A stretch of 25,390 nucleotides of DNA from a bacterium. Lineage in GTDB: Bacteria; JAMOTN01. Location: the NCBI GenBank assembly GCA_027062325.1, contig JAMOTN010000060.1:1-25390 (forward strand), in the 5' to 3' direction. A model generated the notes under the pieces. It did not search any database. It saw only the letters and a list, made by a program, of their open reading frames with translations, and was not told the DNA's origin. Of the stretch, positions 1,648 through 24,874 are shown piece after piece (positions within the stretch are counted from its first letter, which is position 1; every line of letters starts with the position of its first letter). The position numbers were made by a program, and so were the translations under genes.

Positions 1648-1727
1648 TTTTATGAATATCACTCCAGCAGGTGATTAGCCGTTACACTCACTGTTATTTT
1701 TCAATGAGACGCAGGGAGGGGTTGCAG

Positions 1728-2147
1728 GTGGAGAGAAGAATAAGAATACTTATTGCAAAACCAGGATTGGATGGTCATGATCGCGGAGCAAAAGTGGTAG
1801 CACGTGCGCTAAGAGATGCAGGATTTGAAGTGATATACACAGGAAGGCGTCAAACAGTTGATCAAATAGTTGAAACTGCAATACAGGAAGATGTGGACGC
1901 AGTAGGACTCTCTTTGCTTTCAGGAGCACACAACACCCTTTTCCCAAAAGTAGTAAGAAAACTCAGAGAAAGAGGAGCAAAAGACATAGTAGTGTTCGGC
2001 GGAGGAGTAATTCCCCCAGATGACATACCATTTCTTCTAGAAAACGGTATAGCTGCAGTGTTTACACCGGGAACACCACTCTCTGAAGTCGTGGAATTTG
2101 CAAAAAAAATTCCAGAGTTGCAAGAACAACTTAGAAAAGAAAATTAG
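1728..2147 (+). CDS. Methylmalonyl-CoA mutase, small B12-binding subunit (C-terminal domain)
   Basis: A 139-residue stand-alone cobalamin-binding protein of the methylmalonyl-CoA mutase C-terminal family. It carries the lower axial-ligand motif DxHxxG (D15, H17, G20 within [10 protein letters not shown]), the SLL segment (62-64) and the GGG nucleotide-loop motif (91-93). With a separate catalytic subunit it would form the adenosylcobalamin mutase interconverting succinyl-CoA and (R)-methylmalonyl-CoA. The GTG start at 1728 was chosen because GGGAGGGG lies six bases upstream and the protein then begins at the conserved fold ([13 protein letters not shown]). An in-frame extension back to 1671 lacks such a site and looks unlike the family. 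No catalytic subunit gene is present in the window. It heads a plus-strand run followed by meaB. Confidence 0.93.
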
Positions 2148-2200
2148 TCCCCATAGATAACCCCAAAGCCTAAATTGGATTCAGCTAGGGAGTGAAATAA

Positions 2201-3112
2201 GTGGAGAGATTAGAAGAATACGAAATACTTAAGCAAAAACTTACCGATTACATAAAAACTCAAGATTTTCTGCATCTTGCGCGGGCTTTATCCATAGTTG
2301 AAAATTCTCAAGATTCCTACGAACTTCTTGAAAAGCTGTGTTCTGAATTTGAAGAAAAAGAAGCAAAGGTCATAGGGTTTACAGGCTCTCCTGGTGCTGG
2401 GAAGAGCTCTTTGATCTCAGCTCTTATTGATAAATACGCTCAAAAATACGGAAAAGTTGCTGTAATCGCAGTTGATCCTTCATCCCCATTCTCAGGAGGG
2501 GCCATTTTAGGAGATCGCGTTAGAATGATAAAGCACTCTCTTAACAAGAAGGTATTTATAAGAAGTGTGGCAACGAGAGGCTACCTTGGAGGTCTTTCTT
2601 CTGCTGTCCACGATATGATTACAGTTCTCAAAATAGCAGGCTTTAAACGTATTCTTATCGAAACTGTTGGAGTGGGGCAAAGTGAAATAGATGTCGTGGA
2701 AATTGCAGATATCGTATGTCTTGTTTTGACCCCCTCAGCAGGAGATGACATCCAAGCAATGAAAGCTGGCATTATGGAGATTGCCGATGTTATTGTTGTT
2801 AATAAAGCTGACTTAGGCGCAGAACGAGTTTTAGTGGCTCTCAAAAATTTCATGGAAGTTGAAGAAGTGAATATCCCCGTTGTCACTACAGTTGCACTTG
2901 AAAACAAGGGGATTGAAGAACTCTTTAATATTCTTGAAGAAGCTCAATCTCGCATTAAACCATCAGACAAAAAATTATTACGTTTAAAACACGCTATTCG
3001 CTCCATCCTTGAAAAAAGAGTAGAAGGAGTTGTTGAAAAATTGCGCTCCGAAGCTAACTTTGAAAATAAGAACTTTTACTCAATACTTAATAACTTAAAA
3101 GGGGTGATATAG
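2201..3112 (+). CDS. meaB: MeaB/ArgK-type GTPase, chaperone of methylmalonyl-CoA mutase
   Basis: A 303-residue G3E-family GTPase that protects and reloads adenosylcobalamin in methylmalonyl-CoA mutase. Visible motifs are the P-loop GSPGAGKSS (62-70), the switch-region segment VDPSSPFSGGAILGDRVRM (91-109), ETVGVGQSE (155-162) and the guanine-specificity motif NKAD (201-204). These fit MeaB/ArgK, and the neighbours (mutase small subunit upstream, epimerase directly downstream) confirm the role. The GTG start at 2201 has AGGGAGTGA upstream. The stop falls directly before the epimerase ATG, so translation is probably coupled. The C-terminal dimerisation arm (about 265-303) is present, so the gene looks complete. 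Confidence 0.95.
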   Translation: MERLEEYEILKQKLTDYIKTQDFLHLARALSIVENSQDSYELLEKLCSEFEEKEAKVIGFTGSPGAGKSSLISALIDKYAQKYGKVAVIAVDPSSPFSGGAILGDRVRMIKHSLNKKVFIRSVATRGYLGGLSSAVHDMITVLKIAGFKRILIETVGVGQSEIDVVEIADIVCLVLTPSAGDDIQAMKAGIMEIADVIVVNKADLGAERVLVALKNFMEVEEVNIPVVTTVALENKGIEELFNILEEAQSRIKPSDKKLLRLKHAIRSILEKRVEGVVEKLRSEANFENKNFYSILNNLKGVI

Positions 3113-3526
3113 ATGAGCATCGATTTGAATCCTGAATTTGTGGATCATATAGCCGTAGCCGTAAAGAATCTTGAAGAAGCCATTAAAAAGTTTGAGCGCA
3201 TAGGATTGAAACCTTATCACACGGAAGAGGTAGCCGATCAAAAGGTCAAAGTTGCCATGATTAAGGTAGGTCCTACAAACATTGAGCTCCTTGAACCAAC
3301 ATCTGAAGATTCGCCTATCGCCAAATTTATCGAAAAAAAAGGAGAAGGATTGCATCATGTTGCTTTGAGAGTTAATGGATTAGAAGAGATTCTAAATTCC
3401 ATGAAAGAAGCAGGTATTCGCCTAATTGACGAAAAACCCCGCCTTGGAGCAGAAGGCAAAAAGATAGCTTTTATTCATCCAAAAGAAACAGGCATTCTTT
3501 TGGAGTTGTCAGAAGTAGAAGAGTAG
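3113..3526 (+). CDS. mce: Methylmalonyl-CoA epimerase
   Basis: A 137-residue protein of the vicinal-oxygen-chelate fold that interconverts (R)- and (S)-methylmalonyl-CoA, linking the mutase (R form) to the carboxyltransferase (S form). Two beta-alpha-beta repeats are visible, starting at [13 protein letters not shown] and [13 protein letters not shown]. Likely metal ligands are H12, Q43, one of H81/H82 and E131 (LLELSE). The segment [18 protein letters not shown] and the later [15 protein letters not shown] are typical of the family. The ATG start directly abuts the meaB stop and has AAAGGGGTGAT upstream. Length is normal. Confidence 0.95.
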
Positions 3527-3577
3527 CAAATATTAACAAACAAATTTTAATTTATCCTTACTAAGGGAGTGGAATTG

Positions 3578-5119
3578 ATGATAGAAAACCTTATAGCAGA
3601 ACTTGAGAGAAAGCGTGAAAAACTCAAAGAGCTTGGTGGGGAAGATAGACGAAAGAAGCAGCATGATAAAGGAAAACTAGATGCCAGAGAACGTTTGGAA
3701 CTTCTGTTCGATGATGGAATTTTTATGGAACTTGACCCCTTTGTAAAACACAGATGTGTATTCTTTGGCATGGATAAGAAAGATATTCCTGCAGAAGGTG
3801 TAATCTGTGCTGTTGGGACCGTGAACGGAAGAGTAACATTTGCTTTTAGTCAAGACTTCACCTCTGCTGGTGGAAGCGTTGGAGAAATGGGGGCTAAAAA
3901 AATGGTGAAGACGATAGAATTGGCAGCTCGTGCCGGAGCTCCCGTCGTGGGAATAAACGATGGCGGCGGTGCAAGGATTCAAGAAGGCGTTGACGCTTTA
4001 TCTGGGTACGGACACATTTTCATGGCAAACGCAAAATATTCGGGAGTCATACCACAAATTGCAGTCATTGCAGGGCCATGTGCCGGAGGCGCTGCATATT
4101 CCCCTGCTCTCATGGACATGGTCATAGTCGTAGATAAAATTAGCCAAATGTTTATTACAGGTCCTCAAGTCATAAAAGCTGTAACAGGCGAGACTATAAG
4201 TGCAGAAGAACTAGGTGGAGCCGATGTTCACTTCACAGTCAGCGGAAACGCACACTTTAAAGCTCCGACCGATAAAGAGGCAATAAATCTAGTAAAACTT
4301 ATTTTAAGCTATCTTCCCCAAAACTGGAAAACTTTACCCCAATCATCAACAGCACCTTCAGCAGATATTATTCCAGAATTGGACAAAATTATACCAATAG
4401 ATCCCAAACAACCTTACAATATGAAAGATGTGATAAATCTAGTTGCTGATTCAAACACTTTTCTCGAATTTTATGCAGGCTTTGCCCCCAACGCAATAAC
4501 AGGATTTGCTCGTATAGAGGGCAAAGTCGTTGGTATTGTCGCAAATCAACCGTCTGTATGGGCTGGAAGTTTGGATATCAACGCTGCTGATAAAATCTCA
4601 TACTTTGTGCGTCTATGCAATGCATACAATATACCAATTGTGAATCTTATAGACGTCCCGGGATTCTTACCCGGTGTTAACCAAGAGTTTGGAGGAATTA
4701 TAAGACATGGCGCTAAAATGCTTTACGCTTACGCTGAAGCAACAGTTCCGAAGGTAAGTATAATTCTTAGAAAGGCATACGGTGGAGCTTATCTTGCAAT
4801 GTGCTCTAAGGAAATGGGAGCAGATTTCGTATTTGCTTGGCCTACAGCAGAGATTGCAGTAATGGGTCCTGAAGGAGCTGTCAACATCGTATTCAAGAAA
4901 GAGATTGCAGCCTCGGACGATCCCGAAAAAACCCGACAAGCAAAGATCGCCGAGTATCGAGAAAAATTCTCCACTCCATACTTTGCAGCAAGTAGAGGTT
5001 ATATTGATAACATAATAAAACCTTCTGAGACAAAAGTATACATTGCAAATGCCCTTAAAATTCTCGAGACAAAGATGAGCGAGAAAATTAAGAAGAAAGC
5101 TGGACTGATACCGCTTTAA
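3578..5119 (+). CDS. mmdA: Acyl-CoA carboxyltransferase: methylmalonyl-CoA decarboxylase alpha or propionyl-CoA carboxylase beta subunit
   Basis: A 513-residue carboxyltransferase with two crotonase-like halves. The N-terminal half carries GGGARIQEG (about 129-137) and the oxyanion-hole segment GPCAGGAAYSPA (166-177). The C-terminal half carries DVPGFLPG (359-366), AYGGAYLAM and GPEGAVNI. It transfers carboxyl between (S)-methylmalonyl-CoA and biotin. Next to the epimerase and mutase genes, either the sodium-pumping decarboxylase alpha subunit (MmdA) or propionyl-CoA carboxylase beta is possible, and the sequence alone does not separate them. No biotin carrier, biotin carboxylase or membrane beta subunit is encoded nearby, so the partners are elsewhere. 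ATG at 3578 was preferred over the in-frame GTG at 3569, because the AAGGGAG site is spaced correctly for the ATG and overlaps the GTG. Confidence 0.92.
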   Translation: MIENLIAELERKREKLKELGGEDRRKKQHDKGKLDARERLELLFDDGIFMELDPFVKHRCVFFGMDKKDIPAEGVICAVGTVNGRVTFAFSQDFTSAGGSVGEMGAKKMVKTIELAARAGAPVVGINDGGGARIQEGVDALSGYGHIFMANAKYSGVIPQIAVIAGPCAGGAAYSPALMDMVIVVDKISQMFITGPQVIKAVTGETISAEELGGADVHFTVSGNAHFKAPTDKEAINLVKLILSYLPQNWKTLPQSSTAPSADIIPELDKIIPIDPKQPYNMKDVINLVADSNTFLEFYAGFAPNAITGFARIEGKVVGIVANQPSVWAGSLDINAADKISYFVRLCNAYNIPIVNLIDVPGFLPGVNQEFGGIIRHGAKMLYAYAEATVPKVSIILRKAYGGAYLAMCSKEMGADFVFAWPTAEIAVMGPEGAVNIVFKKEIAASDDPEKTRQAKIAEYREKFSTPYFAASRGYIDNIIKPSETKVYIANALKILETKMSEKIKKKAGLIPL

Positions 5120-8406: not shown

Positions 8407-8694
8407 TTACCTAGTCACCTTGCTGTCTTTCCATCCCTTTATAACAATTATCTCATTAGTTCCAACATAATCCAGCTCCCTTCTCACAAGCGCCTCAATA
8501 CCCGCTGGGGTTCGGTAATAATCGTAAAGCCTTCTTAACCTATCTATTTTTTCTGTTAAATACGCCATTTCTGTTAGAATTTGTTCCTTCTCTTTTTTTA
8601 AATAGTGCAGCTGAACTATAACCCTCACTCCATCTATTATTTGTATTAAAACTATCAGAGATATTGCTATAAACAGCGTCTTCAAGCTCTTCAA
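8407..8694 (-). CDS. FtsB/DivIC-like septum-formation protein
   Basis: A 95-residue bitopic protein with an N-terminal helix (about 5-30, [14 protein letters not shown]), a coiled coil (about 31-62, [22 protein letters not shown]), and the tail [17 protein letters not shown]. That tail matches the FtsB/DivIC pattern of an Arg-rich helix, LGYV-like turn and a closing EIV strand. In the family this protein bridges FtsL and FtsQ/DivIB in the division complex. The start is TTG, with AAGGAGG about ten bases upstream inside the end of gyrA, and the first codons overlap the gyrA stop by four bases, so translation is coupled. Linkage to gyrA instead of eno or the mur cluster is unusual. FtsL-like identity is an alternative. 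Confidence 0.78.
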
Positions 8695-11117
8695 GATTCA
8701 TCTTCCTCCTTGATAACCGCTATAGACATCACCCTGTCATCTTTAGATAAATCAACCAACTTCACACCGCTTGCATACCTCTTTTGCACTGCTATTCCAT
8801 CTGTCGGTATCCTTATGATTTTACCGTTTTGCGTAATCATAACAAGATCTTCACCGCCATCCAAAGAAGCTATAGCTACCAACTCTCCTGTTCTACCAGA
8901 ACAATTTATTCCTCTTATTCCAACTCCACCCCTTCTTTGCAATCTAAACTCCTCAAAAGGCGTAATCTTGCCGTATCCTCTTGACGTCACAAACAAAACA
9001 TTATTCCGTTGCCTTGCAGCTCCAATCACTTTGTTATTACCAGATAATTTCATTATTCTTACACCTCGTGCTCCTCTTCCCGTCTCCCTTACATCATTTG
9101 AAGAAAACACAATTACATTTCCATCAGATGAGGCGACTACAAAGTTTTCTTCCTCTTCAAACACAAGTACTCCAACCACTTCATCTCCATCTTCTAATCC
9201 TTGGAATATCAATCCGGTGCGCCGAGTACTGGATTTTAAATCACTTATCAATGTAACCTTTCCCATTCCCCTCTTTGTAACTGAGAAAACTTTCCCTTTG
9301 TCAAGAGAAAATACACGAGCTATTTCACCAACTCTTTCTCCTTTTTTCAACTCTACGAGGTAAGAAACCATTGTTCCCCTTCCTTCTCTCTTTACCTCAG
9401 GGATTTTAGAAACCGGAAGGGTATAGACTCTTCCCATATTTGTAAAAAGCATGAGGTAATCGTTTCCTCGCACTGTAACTACACTGACTGGATAGTCTTC
9501 CTCTTTGTAGTTACCAGCAAGTACTCCTTTTCCACCCCTTTTCTGCGCCCGGTACTCCTTGTTTTTGACCTTTTTCAGGTATCCACGACTGCTAAGGGTA
9601 ACAACATAAGTTGATGTATCCTCCTCTTCCTCCTCCGTGAGATCCATGCTGACTCCACCTATCTGTGTTCTTCTCTCATCACCAAACTTATCCTTTAACT
9701 CAATTAGCTCCTTCTTGACTATCTCCATTCTCAACTCGTGGCTTGCCAGAATCTCCTCAAAGCGCTTTATACTCTCTTCAAGTTTTCTCCTTTCCTCTTC
9801 TAGCTTCTCAACTTCTAAAGCAACCAGTTTTGAAAGTTGCATATCAAGAATTGCCTGAGCTTGCTTTTCTGTAAGTTCAAAACGCTCTGTAAGACGCATC
9901 TTTGCCTCTGCTGTACTTTCACTCGTCTTTATCATTTCAACAACCTCTTCAATATTAGCTATTGCTATCAAGAATCCTGTAACAACTTCCAAACGATCCT
10001 TTGCCTTAGCGAGATCGTACTCTGTACGCCTTATTATCACATTTTCTCTGTGTTTCACGTAAAGTTCGAGGAGCTGTTTAAACTTCAGTGTTACTGGAAC
10101 TCCATCTACTATTGCAAGCATGTTTACTGAATAAACTGTTTCAAGCTGTGTATACTTAAACAACTTATTTAAAACTTTATACGCACTTTCTCCTCTTTTT
10201 AGCTCTACAACAACGCGCATTCCCTCCCTATCACTCTCATCACGTAAATCCGCAATTTCTGTAATTTTACCATTTTTTACAAGTTGAGCAATTTTTTCTA
10301 AAATTGTCCCTTTAGATACTTGATACGGAATTTCCGTTATAACTATGGCCTCTTTTCCTCCTTTAATAGGCTCCACATCTACTTTGGCTCTAACTCGTAA
10401 CCTGCCACTTCCAGTAGCATAAATTTTGACTATCTCCTCTGGATTAGTTATTATTCCACCAGTTGGAAAATCAGGTCCCTTGACACAATCCATAAGCTCA
10501 ACAATTGTAATGGACGGATTATCAATATAGGCAACTATAGCATCTACTATTTCAGATAAATTATGTGGTGGTATATTTGTCGACATACCAACAGCAATTC
10601 CACTTGAACCATTTATCAAAAGATTCGGAATAACACTTGGCAGGTACTCTGGTTCCATCAAAGATTCATCAAAGTTTGGCCTGAAAGGCACTGTATTCTT
10701 CTCTATATCCTGTAAAAGGTATTCTCCAAGCGCAGATAACCTAGCCTCAGTGTACCTCATAGCAGCAGGTGGATCCCCATCAACAGATCCAAAGTTACCG
10801 TGACCCTCTATCAATGGGTAACGCATAGAGAAACCTTGAGCCATTCTAACTAATGCCTCATAAACAGCACTATCTCCATGCGGATGATACTTACCCAAAA
10901 CTTCTCCAACTACTCTTGCACTCTTTTTAAAAGGCTTGTTATGACGCAATCCCATCTCGTACATCACATATAAAATTCTTCTTTGGACAGGCTTTAGACC
11001 ATCTTTTACATCAGGAATTGCACGCCCAATTATAACGCTCATTGCGTAATCAAGATAACTTATCCTTATCTCTTCATCTAACCTTTTAGGTATTATCTCT
11101 CCTGCAAAGAGACTCAT
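8691..11117 (-). CDS. gyrA: DNA gyrase subunit A
   Basis: An 808-residue type IIA topoisomerase breakage-reunion subunit. The catalytic tyrosine is Y122 within [11 protein letters not shown], preceded by the winged-helix segment [20 protein letters not shown] long coiled coil is near residues 430-475. The C-terminal beta-pinwheel opens with the GyrA box QKRGGKG (525-531), which marks gyrase rather than topoisomerase IV. ATG at 11115-11117 was chosen because AAGGAGGATT lies seven bases upstream. The reading frame extends to a TTG at 11147, but those ten residues lack a site. It lies 45 bases downstream of gyrB, and its stop overlaps the FtsB-like gene. An acidic stretch (TEEEEED) separates the N-terminal part from the pinwheel. 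Confidence 0.98.
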
Positions 11118-11162
11118 ATTCAATCCTCCTTTACATGCATTTTGCAACAGTTACTCTATTGA

Positions 11163-13079
<1,917 letters not shown>

Positions 13080-13103
13080 CTACCCCTCCTTTAGAATTAC
13101 ATT

Positions 13104-13679
13104 TTACTTTTCTATAACGTATCTCTTAGCAGCTTTGACATAAACCTCAAACTCTTCCAACAATCCCTCTTCAAGCTTACGTTTGGGAATTTTTCTCTTG
13201 ATCTCTTTGTAAGCCTTTAAGAAGGCTATTGCACTTTCTTTAGTAAATTTTTTAAGAAAAGACGAAACCTCAGATCTGAGCTTTTGTATCTCATCTTGAA
13301 ATTCCACGTTTTTTTCTTCTTCCGAGGCTATTTTTCTAAGCTCCGATATTCTCTTCATGTCCTTTTTTTCTTCACAAAGGACACACATTATTCCCTCACG
13401 AATAGGTCTTCCGCAAACAATGCATCTTTTTTGAGGAGGATTGAATTTTTTCAGAAACGAATTTACACTCTCTTTTAAATCTTCAGGAACCTCATCAAAA
13501 GAATCACGTATATCAAAAGCTTTTTCACTACCTATCTCCTCACTCGAGGCTCTCTCATTAGTAACTGTTTCACGTGAAACAGTATAATTCCCATTTCGAG
13601 CGAGCACTTTAAAATTCCCTATTTTCCTTAACAATCTAGCTCCACTTAGTTTTGAGCCCCCTTTTTTCACTCCCGACAC
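13104..13679 (-). CDS. Zinc-ribbon protein of unknown function in the recF-gyrB interval
   Basis: A 191-residue protein I cannot assign to a family with confidence. Residues 1-65 are low-complexity and basic to polar, and their DNA holds a perfect parS site (codons for VSRET, about 34-38). A zinc ribbon follows with C86, C89, C99 and C102 (RCIVCGRPIREGIMCVLC). The last 85 residues are Lys/Glu-rich and predicted helical. Many bacteria place a DUF721 (DciA-like) gene here, and some of those proteins end in a zinc ribbon plus a helical tail. This could be a relative that lost the DUF721 core, but that is inference. Start GTG at 13677-13679 lies one base after the stop of the upstream gene, with AAAAGGTAGG as ribosome site. 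Confidence 0.72.
   Translation of the reverse strand: MSGVKKGGSKLSGARLLRKIGNFKVLARNGNYTVSRETVTNERASSEEIGSEKAFDIRDSFDEVPEDLKESVNSFLKKFNPPQKRCIVCGRPIREGIMCVLCEEKKDMKRISELRKIASEEEKNVEFQDEIQKLRSEVSSFLKKFTKESAIAFLKAYKEIKRKIPKRKLEEGLLEEFEVYVKAAKRYVIEK
13566..13581. promoter_or_regulatory. parS: parS centromere site
   Basis: TGTTTCACGTGAAACA is an exact match to the conserved bacterial parS palindrome bound by ParB. The symmetry extends to 20 bp (13564-13583). It lies inside the coding sequence of the zinc-ribbon gene, about 2.3 kb from the DnaA-box cluster, and a ParB gene is present at the right end of the window. A second partial match in gyrA (10051-10066) is only a half site. Confidence 0.95.
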
Positions 13680-13680
13680 C

Positions 13681-14556
13681 CTACCTTTTGCTAAGCGATG
13701 TAATGTAAAACACTTCTCTAACTTCCTTCAAATCTAAACATCCTTCTCCATTTGAAAGGTACAAAATTAAATTTCCTGTCTCCCCAAGCCTCCTTACCAA
13801 AGGTAAAATCAAGCTCAAGCTCAAACTCAAAAAAGGCTGATCCAACAAAATTACTCCTATGTCCCTCCTCTCAACTCTTTTTTTTAGATAAAAAACAGAT
13901 AGCCATTCTATCAGATTGCAAAGCTCTGTGTATGTTTGCGATCCATTCCAAGCCTTTTGATAAAAGTATATCATATCCTTGGGGCTAAAATTAGACACAT
14001 TTAAATTTTCCAGAAACACACTCATATTATTCCAGAGTTTCTCCAGCAGAAATTCAACGAAATCGTATTTTCTAGGAATAAATTTACGTCTTCCATTTTT
14101 TAACCTATCAACCAACACCCCTTCAAGTTGTACATCAAAATTCTTACCGAACATTTTCTTTATTTTTTTTTCAACCCCAACTTGCATACTCAAATCGGAA
14201 CTTGTGATATAAAGCAGACTAGCTTTAAGTTCTCCTGCACGCATATCAATGTCATCTTTTACTATACACTCTGCACATTTTTCATAAGCTTCAAGATCTT
14301 TCACACATACTTTCACATAAGCCATAGTTTTTCCTCTAGAAAGGTGAGAAACAGGCAGCAGCTTTGTCAACTTACCAGTCAGGCACGTTGAAATTGCCTC
14401 GCAAAATGCTGTTTTACCACCAGCTGGCGGTGCCAATAAAATTGTGGGACTTTTAAAGGTAAGTTCCATATCAGAAAAGACTCTCCAATTCTTAATATTT
14501 ACCTCAACAATCCTTGCTCTTATCTTCTCTCCTTTCTGAGTATTATTCTTGCTCAT
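13681..14556 (-). CDS. RecF-position P-loop protein with degenerate ATPase motifs
   Basis: A 291-residue protein in the place usually held by recF. The N-terminus fits a RecF/SMC-type ATPase head: RARIVEVNIKNWRVFSDMELTF, then a P-loop-like APPAGGKTAF (42-51) in which the first Gly of GxxxxGKT is Ala. Near the C-terminus VILLDQPFLS (235-244) resembles a Walker B strand followed by a D-loop region, but the usual acidic pair is D-Q. I cannot find the ABC signature (SxGQ). RecF is usually about 350-370 residues, so this is also short. It may be a highly diverged RecF or an unrelated paralogue. ATG at 14554-14556 has GGGGGA upstream, and TTG at 14577 is an alternative. Its stop nearly touches the next gene's start. 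Confidence 0.65.
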   Translation of the reverse strand: MSKNNTQKGEKIRARIVEVNIKNWRVFSDMELTFKSPTILLAPPAGGKTAFCEAISTCLTGKLTKLLPVSHLSRGKTMAYVKVCVKDLEAYEKCAECIVKDDIDMRAGELKASLLYITSSDLSMQVGVEKKIKKMFGKNFDVQLEGVLVDRLKNGRRKFIPRKYDFVEFLLEKLWNNMSVFLENLNVSNFSPKDMIYFYQKAWNGSQTYTELCNLIEWLSVFYLKKRVERRDIGVILLDQPFLSLSLSLILPLVRRLGETGNLILYLSNGEGCLDLKEVREVFYITSLSKR

Positions 14557-14609
14557 AAATACAATCCCCCAACTCAAGAACCATTTTCCTTCATCTACAC
14601 GCTTTATTG

Positions 14610-15881
14610 TCAGTTCATCACACTATCTACCACTCTTCTTATCTTGTTGTAAAATTTATTCCCTTCCTCTCCTGAAAGTATTCTCTCTATCTTTTTTATA
14701 GCATGCATTACAGTCGTATGATCTTTGCGCCCACACAGCTTTGCTATCTCTTTTAAAGACGAACCCTTAATTTTTTTCAAAAGGTACATTAGGGTATGAC
14801 GGGCAGCCGAAACTTTGTCAATTCTGGAACTTCCCTGGATATCTTTCAGCGTAACTCCGAATTCTCTACACACAACCTCTACAAGCTCATCAATCGAGTC
14901 TTCGTCCTCAGAAGATGTGTACTCCGACAAAACATGTCTTACCAAATCCACAGAGACAGTACCGCCACTTACTTTCACAAATGTTGCCAGTGTATTTATG
15001 AAACCCTGTATCTTCCTCACACTTCCTTTCAGGCGAGAAGCTATATATGCTACCATCGTAGAGTCTAACTCTAAGTTATAACTAGATGCGTAAAAATTCA
15101 CAAGCTTTCTCCTCAGCTCTGCATCCGGTGGATTTATACCAACTGTAACCCCACTTTCAAACCTACTTACAAGCCTCCCTTCCAAACCCTTTAATTTTGA
15201 AGGCCTTTCATCACTTGTGATGACTATCTGTTTGCCATTAGCGTAAAGAAAGTTGAATATAGAAAAAAACTCTTCTTGAGCCATGGAATTTTTTAGAAAC
15301 TGAACATCATCCATGAGCAAACAGCTTATCTGCCTGTAAAATTCCCTAAACTCTGTCATTGTCCCACTATCCAGTGCTGCAAATAACCTATCCAGAAACT
15401 CCTTTCCACTAACATATACAACCCTGTGACCTCTATCTCTTAAGTAATTACCTATGGCATGTAAAAGATGCGTTTTTCCAACACCAACCCCTCCATATAA
15501 AAAGAGAGGATTCGCCGATTCACCCGGCTTTTTTGCAACGTCTAAACACGTTACGTAAGCCAGCCTGTTGCTCTCTCCCACCACAAAGTTATCGAAGGTG
15601 TAATCTTTAAATATAGTATCATCCACTCTCTCTTGGGGAGCTGTTATCTCCACATCAAATTCCGTGGATCCATATATTCCCCTCATAAAACTTTTAACAG
15701 TTTCATCTATCTCTTCTCTTCTTTCTTCGAGAATTTCGGCACTTATGTCATTTTTAGCAATTATTGTAATTTTTCGTCCTTTAATGTCCCCGTCTATCTC
15801 CTCTATTAAAGCGGCGTCATCTCCTAAAACGTCATCCACACGCTCCTTCAACTTTCTCCATATAACTTCCCTCTTTGTCAA
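14610..15881 (-). CDS. dnaA: Chromosomal replication initiator protein DnaA
   Basis: A 423-residue initiator that binds DnaA boxes and unwinds the origin. The short domain I (about 1-80) is joined almost directly to the AAA+ domain, so the flexible domain II is nearly absent. Walker A is GGVGVGKT (130-137) in NPLFLYGGVGVGKTHLLHAIG, Walker B is CLLMDDVQF (187-195), and sensor and arginine-finger regions follow (ITSDERPSKLKGLEGRLVSRF). Domain IV carries the DNA-binding signature GRKDHTTVMHAIKKI (384-398). The start is TTG at 15879-15881, with GAGAGGTGA six to seven bases upstream. The first DnaA box of the origin begins only 19 bases upstream of it, so autoregulation by DnaA is likely. dnaN does not follow. 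Confidence 0.98.
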   Translation of the reverse strand: MTKREVIWRKLKERVDDVLGDDAALIEEIDGDIKGRKITIIAKNDISAEILEERREEIDETVKSFMRGIYGSTEFDVEITAPQERVDDTIFKDYTFDNFVVGESNRLAYVTCLDVAKKPGESANPLFLYGGVGVGKTHLLHAIGNYLRDRGHRVVYVSGKEFLDRLFAALDSGTMTEFREFYRQISCLLMDDVQFLKNSMAQEEFFSIFNFLYANGKQIVITSDERPSKLKGLEGRLVSRFESGVTVGINPPDAELRRKLVNFYASSYNLELDSTMVAYIASRLKGSVRKIQGFINTLATFVKVSGGTVSVDLVRHVLSEYTSSEDEDSIDELVEVVCREFGVTLKDIQGSSRIDKVSAARHTLMYLLKKIKGSSLKEIAKLCGRKDHTTVMHAIKKIERILSGEEGNKFYNKIRRVVDSVMN

Positions 15882-18732: not shown

Positions 18733-19035
18733 ATGCCGAATGTCAATGGAAAGGAGTATACAGATTGTGCAAAAGAAATGTTAAAGATGGCAGTAGCTGC
18801 TATTCTTGCTGGCCAAGATTACAAATTGACAATCGAAAACGTTACTCCAAAAGGAAAAAAAGAACAACATATTGAAGTGAAAATCTATTGTAGAGAAGGA
18901 GGCTGGCTTATAGGAAAGAGGGGAGTAAGGCTTAATAGCCTTGCTAGGTTACTTGAAAGAATAATTCAAGAAAATTGTGAAGAAGATTATGTTCTAGCTT
19001 CTGTGGAGGTGAACGGCTACAGGTGGACACAATAG
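18733..19035 (+). CDS. jag: Short Jag/KhpB-like RNA-binding protein (KH domain only)
   Basis: A 100-residue protein in the jag position. Residues about 47-98 form a Jag-type KH domain: EVKIYCREGGWLIGKRGVRL with the GKRG loop at 61-64, then LNSLARLLERIIQ and a closing VLASVEVNGYR. Jag (KhpB/EloR) normally has an N-terminal Jag_N domain and a C-terminal R3H domain, and is about 200 residues or more. Both are missing, and the frame ends a few residues after the KH strand. It overlaps mnmE by 13 bases, so the short end is not a cut gene fragment at a junction. Lone-KH KhpA is an alternative name, but the sequence resembles the Jag KH more. The ribosome site is weak (GGGTGGG, about 13 bases upstream). 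Confidence 0.83.
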   Translation: MPNVNGKEYTDCAKEMLKMAVAAILAGQDYKLTIENVTPKGKKEQHIEVKIYCREGGWLIGKRGVRLNSLARLLERIIQENCEEDYVLASVEVNGYRWTQ

Positions 19036-20396
19036 TTGCTCCTGCTACTCCAACAGGTGGTGCAATAGCTATAGTAAGAGTATCCGGGGAGGATGCATTC
19101 CACATAGTCGAAAGTAGCTTCAAAGTAAATTTGGCTGTAAAAGATGGAAAGTGGAATGCGACTTTAAAAAAGTTAAAAATTGGCGATGAGGTGCTGGATG
19201 AATGTATAGTCCTTACAATGCCTGCTCCAAAGAGCTATACGGGGGAAAACATGGTAGAGATTCATTCTCACGGTAGCTCATTCATAGTTAGAAAAATTGT
19301 CGATACCTTGATAAAGCACGGAGCAAGAGCTGCACAACCCGGAGAGTTTACCAAAAGAGCTGTTCTCAATGGAAAGATGAGTATACTACAGGCAGAGGCT
19401 ATAAATTGGCTAATACGCTCAGAGAACTCAAAGGGATGGGAGATAGCGAAAAAGCAGCTTGAAGGAGAATTTGAAGCTGTAATTAGAAAGTTACGCAAGG
19501 GTATAATAGACCTAGCTAGTGACATGGTAGCAGATCTTGACTTCTCAGATCAAGTAGAGCTATCTATGGATTATTTCGAAAAGAAGGCAAGATACGTTTT
19601 AGGTGTCCTTGAAAAGATTGTGAAGTCCTTAGAAAGAAGTGTTGTAATATTTAATGAGACAAAAGTAGTCATAGCTGGACGTCCTAATGCAGGAAAGTCA
19701 TCACTTATGAATTCTCTTTTAGGAAGAGATAGAGTAATAGTTTCGGATATCGAGGGCACAACAAGGGATTTTGTCTCAGAAACTGTCAATATAGGTGGTT
19801 TTAGAATCAGATTAGTAGATACTGCCGGTATAAGATTGAATGCGAGTGATGAAGTTGAGAGAGAGGGAATAAGGAAGGCTTACAGGGAAATAGAAGGAGC
19901 CACGGTGCTACTGTTGGTTGTTGATTTAGAGAGGGGATTTGGGGATTACGAAAAGAATGTTTTGTTGAGTGCAAATGGTGAGATCATCATTGTTTTGAAC
20001 AAGTCAGATAGAGTTGATGATTCTAGAATAAGTGAAGTGATGGAAAGTGTGACGACCTGGGTGAAGAATGAAGAGTTGGATTGTGGAAGAGTAAATTTTG
20101 CAATAACTGTTGCAAAAGATGGGATAATACACGAAGTTGTTGATAAGTTGAAGACAATTTTAAAAGGAATTTTGGATGTAGAAATACCAGTTGTTCCCCA
20201 GGAGAGATATCTTGCGTTATTCAAGGATGCGCATAAAAGAGCTCAGGAAGTGGTAGATGCAGTTAGGAATGGCATGTTGGATGCGGCTTCGTTCCTTCTT
20301 GAAGAGATAGTTCGTGATCTTGAATTTGTGCTGGGAAAAGTGGATGTAGAAGAAGTTTTAGACGAAGTTTTCAGTAAATTTTGTATTGGAAAGTAA
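19023..20396 (+). CDS. mnmE: tRNA modification GTPase MnmE
   Basis: A 457-residue GTPase that, with MnmG, installs the carboxymethylaminomethyl (or aminomethyl) group on U34 of certain tRNAs. The N-terminal folate-binding domain reads TIVAPATPTGGAIAIVRVSG, PKSYTGENMVEIHSHG and PGEFTKRAVLNGKMS. The inserted G domain shows GRPNAGKS (219-226), EGTTRD (244-249), DTAG (266-269) and NKSD (326-329). The C-terminus ends in the conserved FCIGK with the essential Cys. All key motifs are intact. The start is GTG at 19023, inside the end of jag, and the gene lies directly before two mnmG-type genes, its partner enzymes. Confidence 0.97.
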   Translation: MDTIVAPATPTGGAIAIVRVSGEDAFHIVESSFKVNLAVKDGKWNATLKKLKIGDEVLDECIVLTMPAPKSYTGENMVEIHSHGSSFIVRKIVDTLIKHGARAAQPGEFTKRAVLNGKMSILQAEAINWLIRSENSKGWEIAKKQLEGEFEAVIRKLRKGIIDLASDMVADLDFSDQVELSMDYFEKKARYVLGVLEKIVKSLERSVVIFNETKVVIAGRPNAGKSSLMNSLLGRDRVIVSDIEGTTRDFVSETVNIGGFRIRLVDTAGIRLNASDEVEREGIRKAYREIEGATVLLLVVDLERGFGDYEKNVLLSANGEIIIVLNKSDRVDDSRISEVMESVTTWVKNEELDCGRVNFAITVAKDGIIHEVVDKLKTILKGILDVEIPVVPQERYLALFKDAHKRAQEVVDAVRNGMLDAASFLLEEIVRDLEFVLGKVDVEEVLDEVFSKFCIGK

Positions 20397-20417
20397 GCTT
20401 ATGTAGAGGTGATGTGT

Positions 20418-22328
20418 TTGTTTGATGATAAATACGATGTGGTTGTTATAGGAGCTGGACATGCAGGAATAGAAGCTGCAGCTGTTGTTAAGAGAATGGG
20501 TAAGAAAGTGTGCCTGTTTACATTTGATTTAGATACAATTGGTCTTACGCCTTGTAATCCAGCAGTAGGAGGTCCAGGAAAAGGACATTTAGTATTTGAA
20601 ATAGACGCTATGGGTGGAGTTATGGGAGAACTAGTTCACCGTTCCTACACTCAAATAAGAGTTCTTATGACTTCGCGAGGAAATACTGCAAGGGTTTTAA
20701 GAGCACAGATAGATAAAAAAATGTATCAGCTTGAAGCTAGAAAAATACTGGAGGAAATGGGGGTAGATGTAAAACAAGACGAAGTTGTTGAGATTGTTAT
20801 AGAGAAAGGGCGTGTCAAAGGAGTAAAGACGGCTCTTGGTAAGCTCTACTCGTGTGAAAAGGTTATTCTAACAGCTGGAACCTACCTCGATGCAGAAATA
20901 GTTTTGGGTTTTAAAAAGTGGAGAGCAGGGCCTTCAAATCATATGGCAAGTTATGCACTAACAAAACGCCTTTTAAAGCATGGAGTTGAGGTAACGCGTT
21001 TTCAAACAGCAACTCCTATGAGGGTTGATGGTAGAACTATTGATTTTCAACTGATGAAGCCTCTAATGCCGGATGTAGGAATAACATCTTTTAAGTTTGG
21101 TAAAAAAGTAGACAAAATTAGACAAGTTCCTAGTTACTTAACTTACACAACAAAAGAAACTGTTGAGGTGATAAAACAGCACCTTTCGACCTCCCCCATA
21201 GTTATAGGAAATATTGCAGAAGCAGGTCCAAGATTCTGTCCTTCAATAGACAGAAAAGTCATAAACTTTCCGGAAAAGCCAGATCATCAGATTTTTGTAG
21301 AACCAGAAGGTTTCAACACAGTGGAGTGGTATTTGCAAGGATTGACCACTAGTATGCCTCCTTACGTACAGCACAAAATTCTAGAGAGTATTCCATCGCT
21401 AAAAAGAGCGAGGATAACTCGTTATGGATATGCTATAGAGTATAATGTTTTTCCTCCGTTTAAACAGTTAAAGCCGACACTTGAGCATATAAATGTTAAG
21501 GGGCTTTACTTTGCAGGGCAGATAAACGGGACAAGTGGTTATGAAGAAGCGGCGGCGCAGGGACTCATTGCTGGAATAAATGCGGCACTTTCGTTGGATG
21601 GAGGTAAAGAGTTGGTGCTGTCGCGCTCATCCAGTTACATAGGGGTTCTAATAGATGATATAACGACAAAGAGTTTTACGGAGCCGTACCGGTTGTACAC
21701 TTCCAGAGTGGAGTACAGAATGATACTGAGGGCAAGCACGGCATACTTTAGATTAACCCCTATAGCGTACAGACTTGGCGTAGTTGATCGGAAGTTTTAC
21801 GAAGAGGTTGAGAGGTTAAGAAAAGAGATTCAACGCACAGTTGAATTATTAAAGCTGAAAAAAATTGCTCCAACAAAAAAGGTTAATGAGAAGCTGAAAG
21901 AGGTTGGTTCTACAGCACTTTCAAAAAAAGTAAGTTTGGCAGAGATTTTAAAGCGTCCGGAGTTTAACTACAGTTTGTTAAAACGCCTTTTTCCGGAATA
22001 TGTTCCCGAATTGAGCTCTCCTGATGCAGAGTTTGAAGTGGAAACTGAGATAAAGTACGAAGCATACATAAAGAGGCAACTTTCAAGAGTATGGAAAAGA
22101 GAAAAGTTTGAGAAGTTTGAAGTGCCAGAAGGTTTTGATTGGAATCTTTTGCGCGGTAAAATTTCTGCAGAGGCTTTGGATGAGTTGATCAGAACAAGTC
22201 CATCTTCTGGCAAAGAAATAGCGAGGTTAGCGCGCGTAAGTGAGGAGGATCTGGTTTTTTTATATCAATTTTTCAGAGACAAGAAGTTTAGATTGAGGAT
22301 TTTAGGTATGAAGGCGGAGGAGTTATAA
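20418..22328 (+). CDS. MnmG-type tRNA uridine modification enzyme, copy 1 (divergent)
   Basis: A protein of about 636 residues, FAD-dependent partner of MnmE. The Rossmann motif VVVIGAGHAGIEAA opens it. TPCNPAVGGPGKGHLV and GPRFCPSI keep the two family cysteines, and AGQINGTSGYEEAAAQG and the C-terminal MnmE-binding helices (KYEAYIKRQ onward) are present. From memory of canonical MnmG, several motifs are altered: LNxSKGPAV reads LMTSRGNTA, RLKTGTPPRID reads RFQTATPMRVD, PSIEDKV reads PSIDRKV, and the REDNADLRLT element reads RASTAYFRLT. It is therefore related to but not a standard copy. The start is uncertain: TTG at 20418 has AGAGG at good spacing, while ATG at 20412 and GTG at 20409 sit too near it. 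Its stop overlaps copy 2's ATG. Confidence 0.88.
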   Translation: MFDDKYDVVVIGAGHAGIEAAAVVKRMGKKVCLFTFDLDTIGLTPCNPAVGGPGKGHLVFEIDAMGGVMGELVHRSYTQIRVLMTSRGNTARVLRAQIDKKMYQLEARKILEEMGVDVKQDEVVEIVIEKGRVKGVKTALGKLYSCEKVILTAGTYLDAEIVLGFKKWRAGPSNHMASYALTKRLLKHGVEVTRFQTATPMRVDGRTIDFQLMKPLMPDVGITSFKFGKKVDKIRQVPSYLTYTTKETVEVIKQHLSTSPIVIGNIAEAGPRFCPSIDRKVINFPEKPDHQIFVEPEGFNTVEWYLQGLTTSMPPYVQHKILESIPSLKRARITRYGYAIEYNVFPPFKQLKPTLEHINVKGLYFAGQINGTSGYEEAAAQGLIAGINAALSLDGGKELVLSRSSSYIGVLIDDITTKSFTEPYRLYTSRVEYRMILRASTAYFRLTPIAYRLGVVDRKFYEEVERLRKEIQRTVELLKLKKIAPTKKVNEKLKEVGSTALSKKVSLAEILKRPEFNYSLLKRLFPEYVPELSSPDAEFEVETEIKYEAYIKRQLSRVWKREKFEKFEVPEGFDWNLLRGKISAEALDELIRTSPSSGKEIARLARVSEEDLVFLYQFFRDKKFRLRILGMKAEEL

Positions 22329-24202
22329 TGTTGGGCTCAAAGTTTGATGTTGTAGTCATTGGAGCGGGGCACGCCGGTGTAGAGGCTGCCCTAGCAGCAG
22401 CAAGAATAGGGGCAAGGGTGCTTCTTATAACGCAAAATTTGGATGTTGTTGCTAAAGCTTCTTGTAATCCATCTGTTGGGGGACCTGGGAAAACTCAACT
22501 TGTATATGAGATATCTGCGCTAGGTGGGGCAATAGGAAGGTTTACAGATAAAACCAGCATCCATAAGCGAATATTGAATACCAGAAAGGGCAAAGCTGTG
22601 TGGGCTTTGCGAGCTCAAATTGATAGGTTTTTTTATGCAAAATATGCTAAGGAGTTTGTAGAGAAGGAGCAAAATTTGGTGGTTTTACAAGGAGTGGTTG
22701 ACAAAATTATTTTAGAAGGGGAAGGGAAATATAGGGTTAAAGGAGTATGGGTTCGTCATGTTGGTGAATTTTTTGCGCCTTGTGTGGTATATTGCCCTGG
22801 CACTTTTCCGAATGGAAAGGTTTTCATAGGTAAAGATTTTGAAATAAAAGTTGGAAGGATGGGAGAAAAGGCTACGGGAAAGATAACAGATCAGCTAAAA
22901 GAGCTTGGAATGGATATAGGGAGGTTAAAAACGGGTACTCCACCTCGTGTGAAGATAACTAGCGTTAATCTAAAGTTGTGTGAACTCCAACCTTCAGAAG
23001 CTATAGATTGGCCATTTGACTATTGGGAGGAATTGAATGAGAGCAGAATAGAACTTCCATGTTATATAACACGCTTGAGTGAAGAAGGTGCCAAGTTTAT
23101 CAAGGAAAATTTATTAGAGAGTGCTTTATTTCTGGGGAAATTTGAAGGAGTTGGTCCTCGCTATTGTCCTTCGATCGAGGATAAGGTGCATAAGTTTGGA
23201 GTGAAGGAGTACTTGGTTTTTCTAGAGCCAGAAGGAGTTGGAATTGATGAATTTTATGTACAGGGGATGTCAACAAGTCTTCCTATGTGGGCTCAGGAGA
23301 TTTATATCCGTAAGATTAGAGGACTTGAAAATTGTGTGATAACACGCTATGGATATGCAATAGAGTACGACTATTTAAAGCCGTATCAGATAGAGAAAAC
23401 GCTTGAGGTAAAGAAGATAGAAGGGTTGTTCACGGCAGGGCAGATAAACGGAACGAGTGGTTATGAAGAAGCAGCGGCTCAAGGAATTTTAGCAGGAATA
23501 AACGCGGCATTGAAAAGTTTAGGGGAGGATCTTTTGGTTTTAGGAAGAGATAGCTACATAGGTGTGTTGGTGGATGATCTTGCGGATAAGGTAATAGATG
23601 AGCCTTACAGAATGTTTACCTCAAGGCTTGAGAGGAGAATGAGTGTGAGATGGGATAATGCGTGGCTTAGAATGGCCAAGATTTCTAGAAAACTTGGACT
23701 TCTTGATAGAAGGGCAGAGAAGAAACTTTTAGATATGGAGAATACTTACAAGGAGATTGTTAAATTTTTAAGATGCTCTACGATTAAATGCGAAGTTAAG
23801 GGAAAGAGAAAAAGTGGCTTTAAGAAAAAATCTTTGTGGGAATTGTTGAAAAGGCAAGATGTTACACTTGAGAATTTGCTGAATTTTGCTTGCAATGAAG
23901 GAATGCTTCAATGTAGTTTGAAAAATGAGTGGTTAAAAAATAGATTTGTTACAGCTGCTGTGGAGATTGATTGCAAGTATGAAAATTTTATAAAAGCAGA
24001 GAAGAGAATTTCTTTTGATGAAAGGACTTTAAAGAGAGTGGATTTGAGCAATGTAGATTACGATAAAATTCCCATATCTTTTGAAGCTAGACAGAAGTTA
24101 AAGAAGTACAACCCCAAAACACTGCTTGAGGCTTATAAAATTGGTGGAATAAGAACTTCAGATATTGAGAATATACTGAAGTTTGTTTTAAGGGAAAGGT
24201 AA
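22328..24202 (+). CDS. mnmG: MnmG-type tRNA uridine modification enzyme, copy 2
   Basis: A 624-residue FAD-dependent protein of the MnmG/GidA family. It opens with VVVIGAGHAGVEAA. It keeps ASCNPSVGGPGK with its Cys, LRAQIDR, RLKTGTPPRV, GPRYCPSIEDKV with the second Cys, and AGQINGTSGYEEAAAQG. These are closer to canonical MnmG than in copy 1. Other parts differ: GKGHLV reads GKTQLV, LNxSKGPAV reads LNTRKGKAV, and AEYRLMLREDNADLRL reads LERRMSVRWDNAWLRM. The C-terminal domain (CKYENFIKAEKR, then YDKIPISFEARQKL) is present. ATG at 22328 overlaps the copy 1 stop as TAATG, with GGAGGAG upstream, so both are translated together. It is the likelier copy for the standard activity, if only one has it. 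Confidence 0.9.
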   Translation: MLGSKFDVVVIGAGHAGVEAALAAARIGARVLLITQNLDVVAKASCNPSVGGPGKTQLVYEISALGGAIGRFTDKTSIHKRILNTRKGKAVWALRAQIDRFFYAKYAKEFVEKEQNLVVLQGVVDKIILEGEGKYRVKGVWVRHVGEFFAPCVVYCPGTFPNGKVFIGKDFEIKVGRMGEKATGKITDQLKELGMDIGRLKTGTPPRVKITSVNLKLCELQPSEAIDWPFDYWEELNESRIELPCYITRLSEEGAKFIKENLLESALFLGKFEGVGPRYCPSIEDKVHKFGVKEYLVFLEPEGVGIDEFYVQGMSTSLPMWAQEIYIRKIRGLENCVITRYGYAIEYDYLKPYQIEKTLEVKKIEGLFTAGQINGTSGYEEAAAQGILAGINAALKSLGEDLLVLGRDSYIGVLVDDLADKVIDEPYRMFTSRLERRMSVRWDNAWLRMAKISRKLGLLDRRAEKKLLDMENTYKEIVKFLRCSTIKCEVKGKRKSGFKKKSLWELLKRQDVTLENLLNFACNEGMLQCSLKNEWLKNRFVTAAVEIDCKYENFIKAEKRISFDERTLKRVDLSNVDYDKIPISFEARQKLKKYNPKTLLEAYKIGGIRTSDIENILKFVLRER

Positions 24203-24223
24203 AAAATAAGAGAGTTGTCAAAA

Positions 24224-24874
24224 ATGGACAAAATATACCAATATAAAATAGAAGGATATATCGGGAAAAATATAGAGTTTTTTCAAAGGATTTACAATTA
24301 CTCACTTTTAAAAATAGAAAAATATAAGACAGAATTATACAAAATTAACAAAGCTAAAAATTTAACCTCTATACCTCCCGTAGAGTTTGAAAAACGCGTT
24401 ATTGCTCCTGCATTTTCTATGTTTAAAGTGATTTTCTATTTCGTAAAGGAAGAAAATTTATCCGAAATTGTTGACATAGGATCAGGAGGTGGGTTGTTGG
24501 GAATACCAGTGAGCATATTTTTAAGTGTTTCAAAAGAGCTGGGATTCCTGGAAAAAAATCCTATGACTGTACTAGTTGAGAGAAGAAAAATGAAAGCTGC
24601 TGCTTTGATGCTTTTTAAGGCTTTTTTAAGGGAGAACTTCAAAGTTTATGAAATGGGAGTTGAGGATTACTTTGCTGGAGTAAAACGAGGCAAGAGGTTG
24701 TGTATTGCAAGGGCGTTAAGGATAGAGAATAAGATGGCACATTCTATGAAGGGTAAGATTGGTGCTTTACTTACCTTTACTTCTTTAGATGATAAAGTTT
24801 TAAAGCTGTTCAATTTTTCCGATGTGTGCAGGCTCACAATTGACTCTGTTGAGATTTGGATGCACGTTGTTTAA
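24224..24874 (+). CDS. rsmG: RsmG-like 16S rRNA guanine methyltransferase (divergent)
   Basis: A protein of about 216 residues in the rsmG position after mnmG. RsmG methylates N7 of a guanine in 16S rRNA near the decoding site. The SAM-binding loop is IVDIGSGGGLLGIPVSI (about 82-98), for the usual DxGSGxGfPGIPLAI. LVERRKMKAAAL stands where LLxSxxKRxxFL is usual, and CIARAL matches the sRA element. The N-terminus (IYNYSLLKIEKYKTELYKINKAKNLTSI) keeps the WN-xxxNLTaI pattern only in part. It is recognisable but strongly diverged, so activity is likely, not certain. ATG at 24224 was preferred with a weak GAGAG upstream, and TTG at 24215 is the alternative. Confidence 0.83.
   Translation: MDKIYQYKIEGYIGKNIEFFQRIYNYSLLKIEKYKTELYKINKAKNLTSIPPVEFEKRVIAPAFSMFKVIFYFVKEENLSEIVDIGSGGGLLGIPVSIFLSVSKELGFLEKNPMTVLVERRKMKAAALMLFKAFLRENFKVYEMGVEDYFAGVKRGKRLCIARALRIENKMAHSMKGKIGALLTFTSLDDKVLKLFNFSDVCRLTIDSVEIWMHVV

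Follow-up and report, generated by a model that had tools for sequence, protein, structure and literature searches.

MnmG (GidA) acts together with MnmE, and the partnership is nearly universal; the human counterparts are MTO1 and GTPBP3, and mutation of the human form leads to disease. The known MnmG proteins are homodimers encoded by a single gene copy.

In the cryo-EM structure of the E. coli MnmEG complex the MnmG dimer is asymmetric, with motif 1 (residues 273-287) ordered only in the MnmE-bound subunit, where it touches the MnmE swivel helix, and with K283 anchoring the MnmE C terminus (PMC12397908). Its authors suggested that one MnmG subunit may hold MnmE and the other tRNA, and how one MnmG dimer handles both was named by them in 2025 as an open question (PMC12397908). 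The locus described here departs from the single-copy arrangement in encoding two diverged MnmG proteins beside one mnmE gene, which a reading of the letters alone (the sequence-only reading) had taken to suggest an obligate heterodimer or a second enzyme with a different substrate.

Organization of the locus

The window, by which we mean the whole stretch of DNA analysed, comprises 25,390 nucleotides (positions 1 to 25,390 of contig JAMOTN010000060.1, assembly GCA_027062325.1). MnmG proteins with the signature of the mnmE-linked copy, QTATPxR plus CPS[IL]DRK, are here called A-type, and those with the canonical forms B-type. The relevant features are as follows.

19023..20396, + strand: mnmE, 457 aa, C-terminal FCIGK motif intact; TIGR00450 score 311 bits against a cut-off of 252.6
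20409..22328, + strand: MnmG copy 1 (P0001), A-type, 639 codons from GTG 20409; TIGR00136
21000..21022, + strand: A-type signature 1 in the copy 1 sequence, FQTATPMR (canonical KTGTPPR; E. coli K198Q, G200A)
21237..21257, + strand: A-type signature 2 in copy 1, CPSIDRK (canonical CPSIEDK; E. coli E281D, D282R, beside catalytic Cys277)
about 22316..22322 (both bounds approximate), + strand: Shine-Dalgarno-like GGAGGAG for copy 2, within the 3' end of copy 1
22326..22330, + strand: TAATG overlap of the copy 1 stop (TAA 22326-22328) and copy 2 start (ATG 22328-22330)
22328..24202, + strand: MnmG copy 2 (P0002), B-type with canonical signature, 624 aa; TIGR00136
22928..22948, + strand: canonical KTGTPPR of copy 2, from sequence and alignment
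23165..23185, + strand: canonical CPSIEDK (MnmG-specific motif 1) of copy 2, from sequence and alignment
24215..24874, + strand: rsmG (gidB), the usual downstream neighbour; PF02527 score 42 bits against a cut-off of 27

The order is thus mnmE, MnmG-A, MnmG-B, rsmG, and both mnmG genes are intact, bearing out the description of two full-length MnmG proteins lying back to back and joined by TAATG. Translation of copy 1 could begin at GTG 20409, ATG 20412 or TTG 20418; the last, which the sequence-only reading had taken as the start, is the best spaced after AGAGGTG (20405-20411) and is the likely start. Since copy 2 has a Shine-Dalgarno sequence of its own, the forced co-translation that had been proposed for the pair is too strong a description. 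Upstream, the gene in the jag position (18733-19035) encodes 100 aa, overlaps the start of mnmE and has no Pfam match at 1e-5, and its product looks like a KH domain by itself.

Family identity of the two copies

Both copies exceed the cut-off of the MnmG equivalog model TIGR00136 (524.85 bits), with scores of 680.1 bits for copy 1 and 644.5 bits for copy 2, and the MnmG structures of E. coli, Aquifex and Chlorobaculum align to both from end to end. Like E. coli MnmG and human MTO1 they share the family's domain order, FAD Rossmann motif (GxGHAG), Cys47, Cys277 and K283 (E. coli numbering throughout), and they likewise neighbour mnmE and rsmG; retention of the Rossmann motif and of both cysteines had been correctly read from the sequence. 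An identity with TrmFO, which has the FAD-binding core in common with both copies, was considered and rejected: copy 1 scores 77.7 and 67.0 bits and copy 2 79.0 and 74.4 bits against TrmFO cut-offs of 262 and 428.65, and TrmFO is a separate gene in the same genome. It accounts for the third PF01134 match there, and no further mnmG, the finding that the sequence-only reading had named as speaking against itself, was found in this assembly (1.65 Mb in 81 contigs, 84% complete).

The two copies are 37% identical in the alignment, so neither is a recent copy of the other. Copy 1 reads LMTSRGNTA, QTATPMRVD and SIDRK at the family motifs, while copy 2 retains KTGTPPR and SIEDK and is altered at GKTQLV and RVK; REDNADLRL has become RASTAYFRL in copy 1 and RWDNAWLRM in copy 2. 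The alignment therefore agrees with the motif changes reported earlier for each copy. Motif 1 in full, GPRYCPSIEDK, is present in copy 2 together with KTGTPPR, and copy 1 has GPRFCPSIDRK and QTATPMR instead. Copy 1 is A-type both in carrying QTATPxR and CPS[IL]DRK and in its placement within the A clade when those columns are left out.

Distribution of the A- and B-types

Almost all genomes in successive surveys of 59 and 192 genomes contain one MnmG. The first clear exceptions were two genomes of a single phylum (G022 and G169), in which 76 of 80 genomes, some of only 1.2-1.4 Mb, proved to have two copies encoded by unlinked genes. This phylum is likely to be Fusobacteriota, as a search of five of its genomes gave FadA adhesin matches in three. 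Its mnmE-linked copy has the signature of copy 1, and its other copy is canonical like copy 2.

A scan of 386 genomes from 327 genera with a codon-complete pattern for CPS[IL]DRK found the A-type only in the window, in the inferred Fusobacteriota and in a further phylum, here phylum X (G118, G334 and G460); none of the genomes sampled outside these three phyla contains it. The window's genome is the single representative of its own phylum in the sample. An independent search with QTATPxR gave, among matches with a fetched locus, MnmG in the same three phyla only. QTATP by itself was rejected as a marker of the A-type in additional phyla, the other matches with a fetched locus not being MnmG.

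Two MnmG copies are present in 27 of 39 phylum X genomes, and in 22 of these 27 an A copy is followed by a B copy on one contig. Eight of the 22 pairs are adjacent or less than 1 kb apart, and 14, all from family f119, are approximately 2-2.5 kb apart. The phylum X pairs (in G118, G497, G465 and others) consist of the same A and B types in the same tandem order as in the window, except that the A and B genes of family f119 are separated by a gene of about 2 kb. In G118 a gene for a HEAT-repeat protein lies between the two (L128:6160-8229), and G471 has a gene of similar size; the HEAT-repeat protein is a possible accessory of the pair.

Each type also occurs alone. B is found without A in three genomes of family f267 (G489-G491; L114, L121 and L123) and in G250 (L161), and A without B in G228 (L130), which is 97% complete. 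Several further genomes seem to have a single copy, but there the gene is at a contig end or the genome is incomplete.

The order yidC-jag-mnmE-A-B-rsmG in G465 is that of the window. The A copy of G465 is present as two open frames (L132:3238-5142), which points to a sequencing error or to decay of A beside an intact B. In the inferred Fusobacteriota the A-type directly follows mnmE and the canonical B-type is elsewhere, upstream of rsmG, so that the two are unlinked there and overlapping in the window. Such an arrangement would be expected if an ancestral mnmE-A-B-rsmG operon had been broken up in the inferred Fusobacteriota, though transfer may also account for it. UniProt annotates two genes in Fusobacterium, as MnmG 1 and MnmG 2.

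Phylogeny of the pair

The A sequences, copy 1 among them, form one clade with support of 100/99 in a tree built without both signature blocks (99 in another tree), and in one tree copy 1 groups with the Fusobacteriota-like A sequences at 94/90. With all columns included, copy 2 joins the phylum X B copies (95/93). A sister relationship of copies 1 and 2, both of which are long branches, is rejected when all columns are used (AU p = 0.003) and is disfavoured, below the strength of rejection, when the signature columns are removed (AU p = 0.12).

In an RpoB tree the window's genome is sister to phylum X (100/99) and separate from the two-copy phylum. The A-B pair was thus probably inherited vertically in the lineage of the window and phylum X, and deep common descent or an old transfer may account for its link to the third phylum's copies. 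RpoB is itself long in the window's genome and in phylum X, with open frames of 1320-1615 aa (1603 in the window's genome; G000:C37:5358-6920; L223-L228), compared with approximately 1150-1170 aa in the inferred Fusobacteriota; the longer forms suggest large insertions.

Whether the pair is old and conserved was the key check put forward with the sequence-only reading, and the A clade, together with a signature and synteny common to several phyla, answers it in the affirmative. We conclude that the two genes are almost certainly an ancient and functional MnmG pair.

Residues that distinguish the two types

All 49 A sequences, from three phyla, carry the QTATP/DRK signature, so that K198Q, G200A, E281D and D282R are fixed, and all 49 keep C47, C277, P278, K283 and the FAD glycines. 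In all but two sequences Y276 is replaced by H or F, and none retains L316 (L316M). The six positions altered throughout the A-type are all retained in copy 2 and almost always in the other B copies, with L316 variable in some of these; no position is changed throughout the B copies. The A-type has its own set of invariant residues, indicating that it is under selection of its own. At the level of sequence these comparisons show that the A-type is a separate MnmG subfamily in which the surroundings of the catalytic Cys277 have undergone a fixed change, and that the B-type is canonical in its signature.

Of 164 positions conserved in single-copy MnmG copy 1 has lost 37 and copy 2 has lost 26, and 10 are lost by both where 5.9 would be expected by chance; the losses are thus not complementary. 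This result, and the occurrence of each type alone in some genomes, undercut the argument that different motif losses in the two copies imply an obligate heterodimer.

The helical bundle at the C terminus, on which MnmE docks (Pfam SAM_GIDA_C), is detected in copy 2 (E = 2.2e-9), and no match is found in copy 1 at E<=0.001. Of the conserved positions beyond residue 570, copy 1 keeps 45% and copy 2 55%, compared with 73-100% for single-copy MnmG. The earlier statement that both copies keep the MnmE-binding region needs correcting for copy 1, in which the region is not clearly kept. More broadly, 10 of the 17 A sequences and 17 of the 18 B sequences have a match to the domain, and the bundle is degraded as well in the B copies of family f119. 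An apparent regain of canonical C-terminal residues in the B-only genomes was discarded, having vanished once these genomes were left out of the reference set. MnmE ends in FCIGK or FCVGK in the window and in all paired genomes examined. An AlphaFold model of copy 1 made from a two-row alignment had a mean pLDDT of 37.7.

Discussion

The A-type differs from described MnmG in having QTATPxR and CPS[IL]DRK for the canonical KTGTPPR and CPSIEDK and in its weak C-terminal bundle. It is apparently an undescribed subfamily, accompanying a canonical MnmG in three phyla at the least; we found no description of it in the open-access literature on MnmG paralogues, Fusobacterium MnmG or mnmG1/mnmG2, and, as automatic annotation names both copies 'MnmG', it has been overlooked as far as we have found.

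There is good support for A and B dividing the work between them. The form that we tentatively favour, as a possible rather than a probable reading of the sequences, is an MnmE-dependent A-B heterodimer in which B is canonical and A specialized. On this view both proteins would join the one MnmE in modifying the wobble uridine (U34), and an A-B dimer is their most likely form. Docking of the C-terminal swivel helix of MnmE and the canonical FAD and methylene chemistry would fall to B; A, whose motif 1 is rewired and whose MnmE-docking bundle is weaker, would complete the dimer and be specialized for holding tRNA or for another step. The appeal of such a heterodimer is that the A-B pairing would be a permanent, genetically fixed form of the asymmetry that the E. 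coli homodimer adopts only upon binding MnmE. The block changed in the A-type is the MnmG-specific motif 1. This location, the six substitutions fixed across phyla alongside an unchanged Cys47, Cys277, K283 and Rossmann glycines, the single A clade, the tandem or near-tandem pairs of phylum X, the seemingly split operon and the upkeep of two copies in the inferred Fusobacteriota, and the unequal retention of SAM_GIDA_C (10/17 A against 17/18 B) speak for the heterodimer. Against it are the non-complementary losses, the A-only genome G228 and the B-only genomes G489-G491 and G250, and the unlinked genes of the inferred Fusobacteriota; its kept cysteines and FAD motifs suggest, moreover, that A may be a self-sufficient enzyme. 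The stricter proposal of a heterodimer that is obligate in all three phyla and permanently asymmetric, in which one subunit accepts methylene from MnmE while its partner, carrying the rewired Cys277 motif, positions or modifies tRNA, seems to us possible but less likely.

Two separate MnmG homodimers sharing one MnmE, and serving different tRNA sets or making cmnm5U (with glycine) and nm5U (with ammonium) respectively, are nearly as likely as the heterodimer, since the catalytic cysteines are kept in both types, as are the FAD motifs. The genomes with either type alone, the unlinked genes of the inferred Fusobacteriota and the separate selection on A evident from its invariant residues all accommodate this arrangement, whereas a shared complex would explain at least as well the near-constant co-occurrence of the two types and the tandem arrangement seen in phylum X and in the window.

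We consider it improbable that A is a non-catalytic pseudo-subunit, binding FAD, MnmE or tRNA as a regulator or scaffold that tunes B. In favour of such a role, every A sequence is altered where insertion domain 2 is most conserved (E281D, D282R, K198Q and G200A), and retention of the C-terminal bundle is weak. Against it, all 49 A sequences have C47, C277, K283 and the FAD glycines unchanged, and in G228, where an A and no B is detected, A must act unless B lies in an assembly gap.

An ordinary recent duplication followed by drift in this lineage, with no special function, is very improbable: sisterhood of the copies does survive removal of the two motif blocks (AU p = 0.12), and both branches are long, but it is contradicted by the test on all columns (AU p = 0.003), by the grouping of copy 1 with the A sequences of two other phyla (100/99) and by a signature and synteny common to several phyla. 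That the mnmG genes of two organisms were joined during assembly or binning is scarcely credible, fragmented as the assembly is (81 contigs, 84% complete), given that both genes are intact, overlap within a single contig and have the neighbours expected of them; it is contradicted by the A-B order recurring in several independent sister-phylum genomes.

Lineages in which MnmG is split into unlike subunits, with fixed changes by the catalytic cysteine, make the question of how one dimer deals with MnmE and tRNA testable by mutation of a single subunit, and the genomes in which one type naturally stands alone (A in G228; B in G250 and the three f267 genomes) are useful for establishing what each type can do by itself.

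Elsewhere in the window, genes for a B12-binding domain, a MeaB GTPase and a carboxyltransferase (1671-5119) form a methylmalonyl-CoA mutase/carboxylase cluster, and gyrA, gyrB and dnaA (8691-15881) lie on the minus strand, opposing yidC-mnmE-mnmG-rsmG-parB, in what is probably the chromosome origin region. The sole full-length MnmA-like match in the window's genome (G000:C79:53267-54283) scores 184.7 bits against a family cut-off of 237, and from this sub-cut-off score the 2-thiolation enzyme also appears to be diverged.
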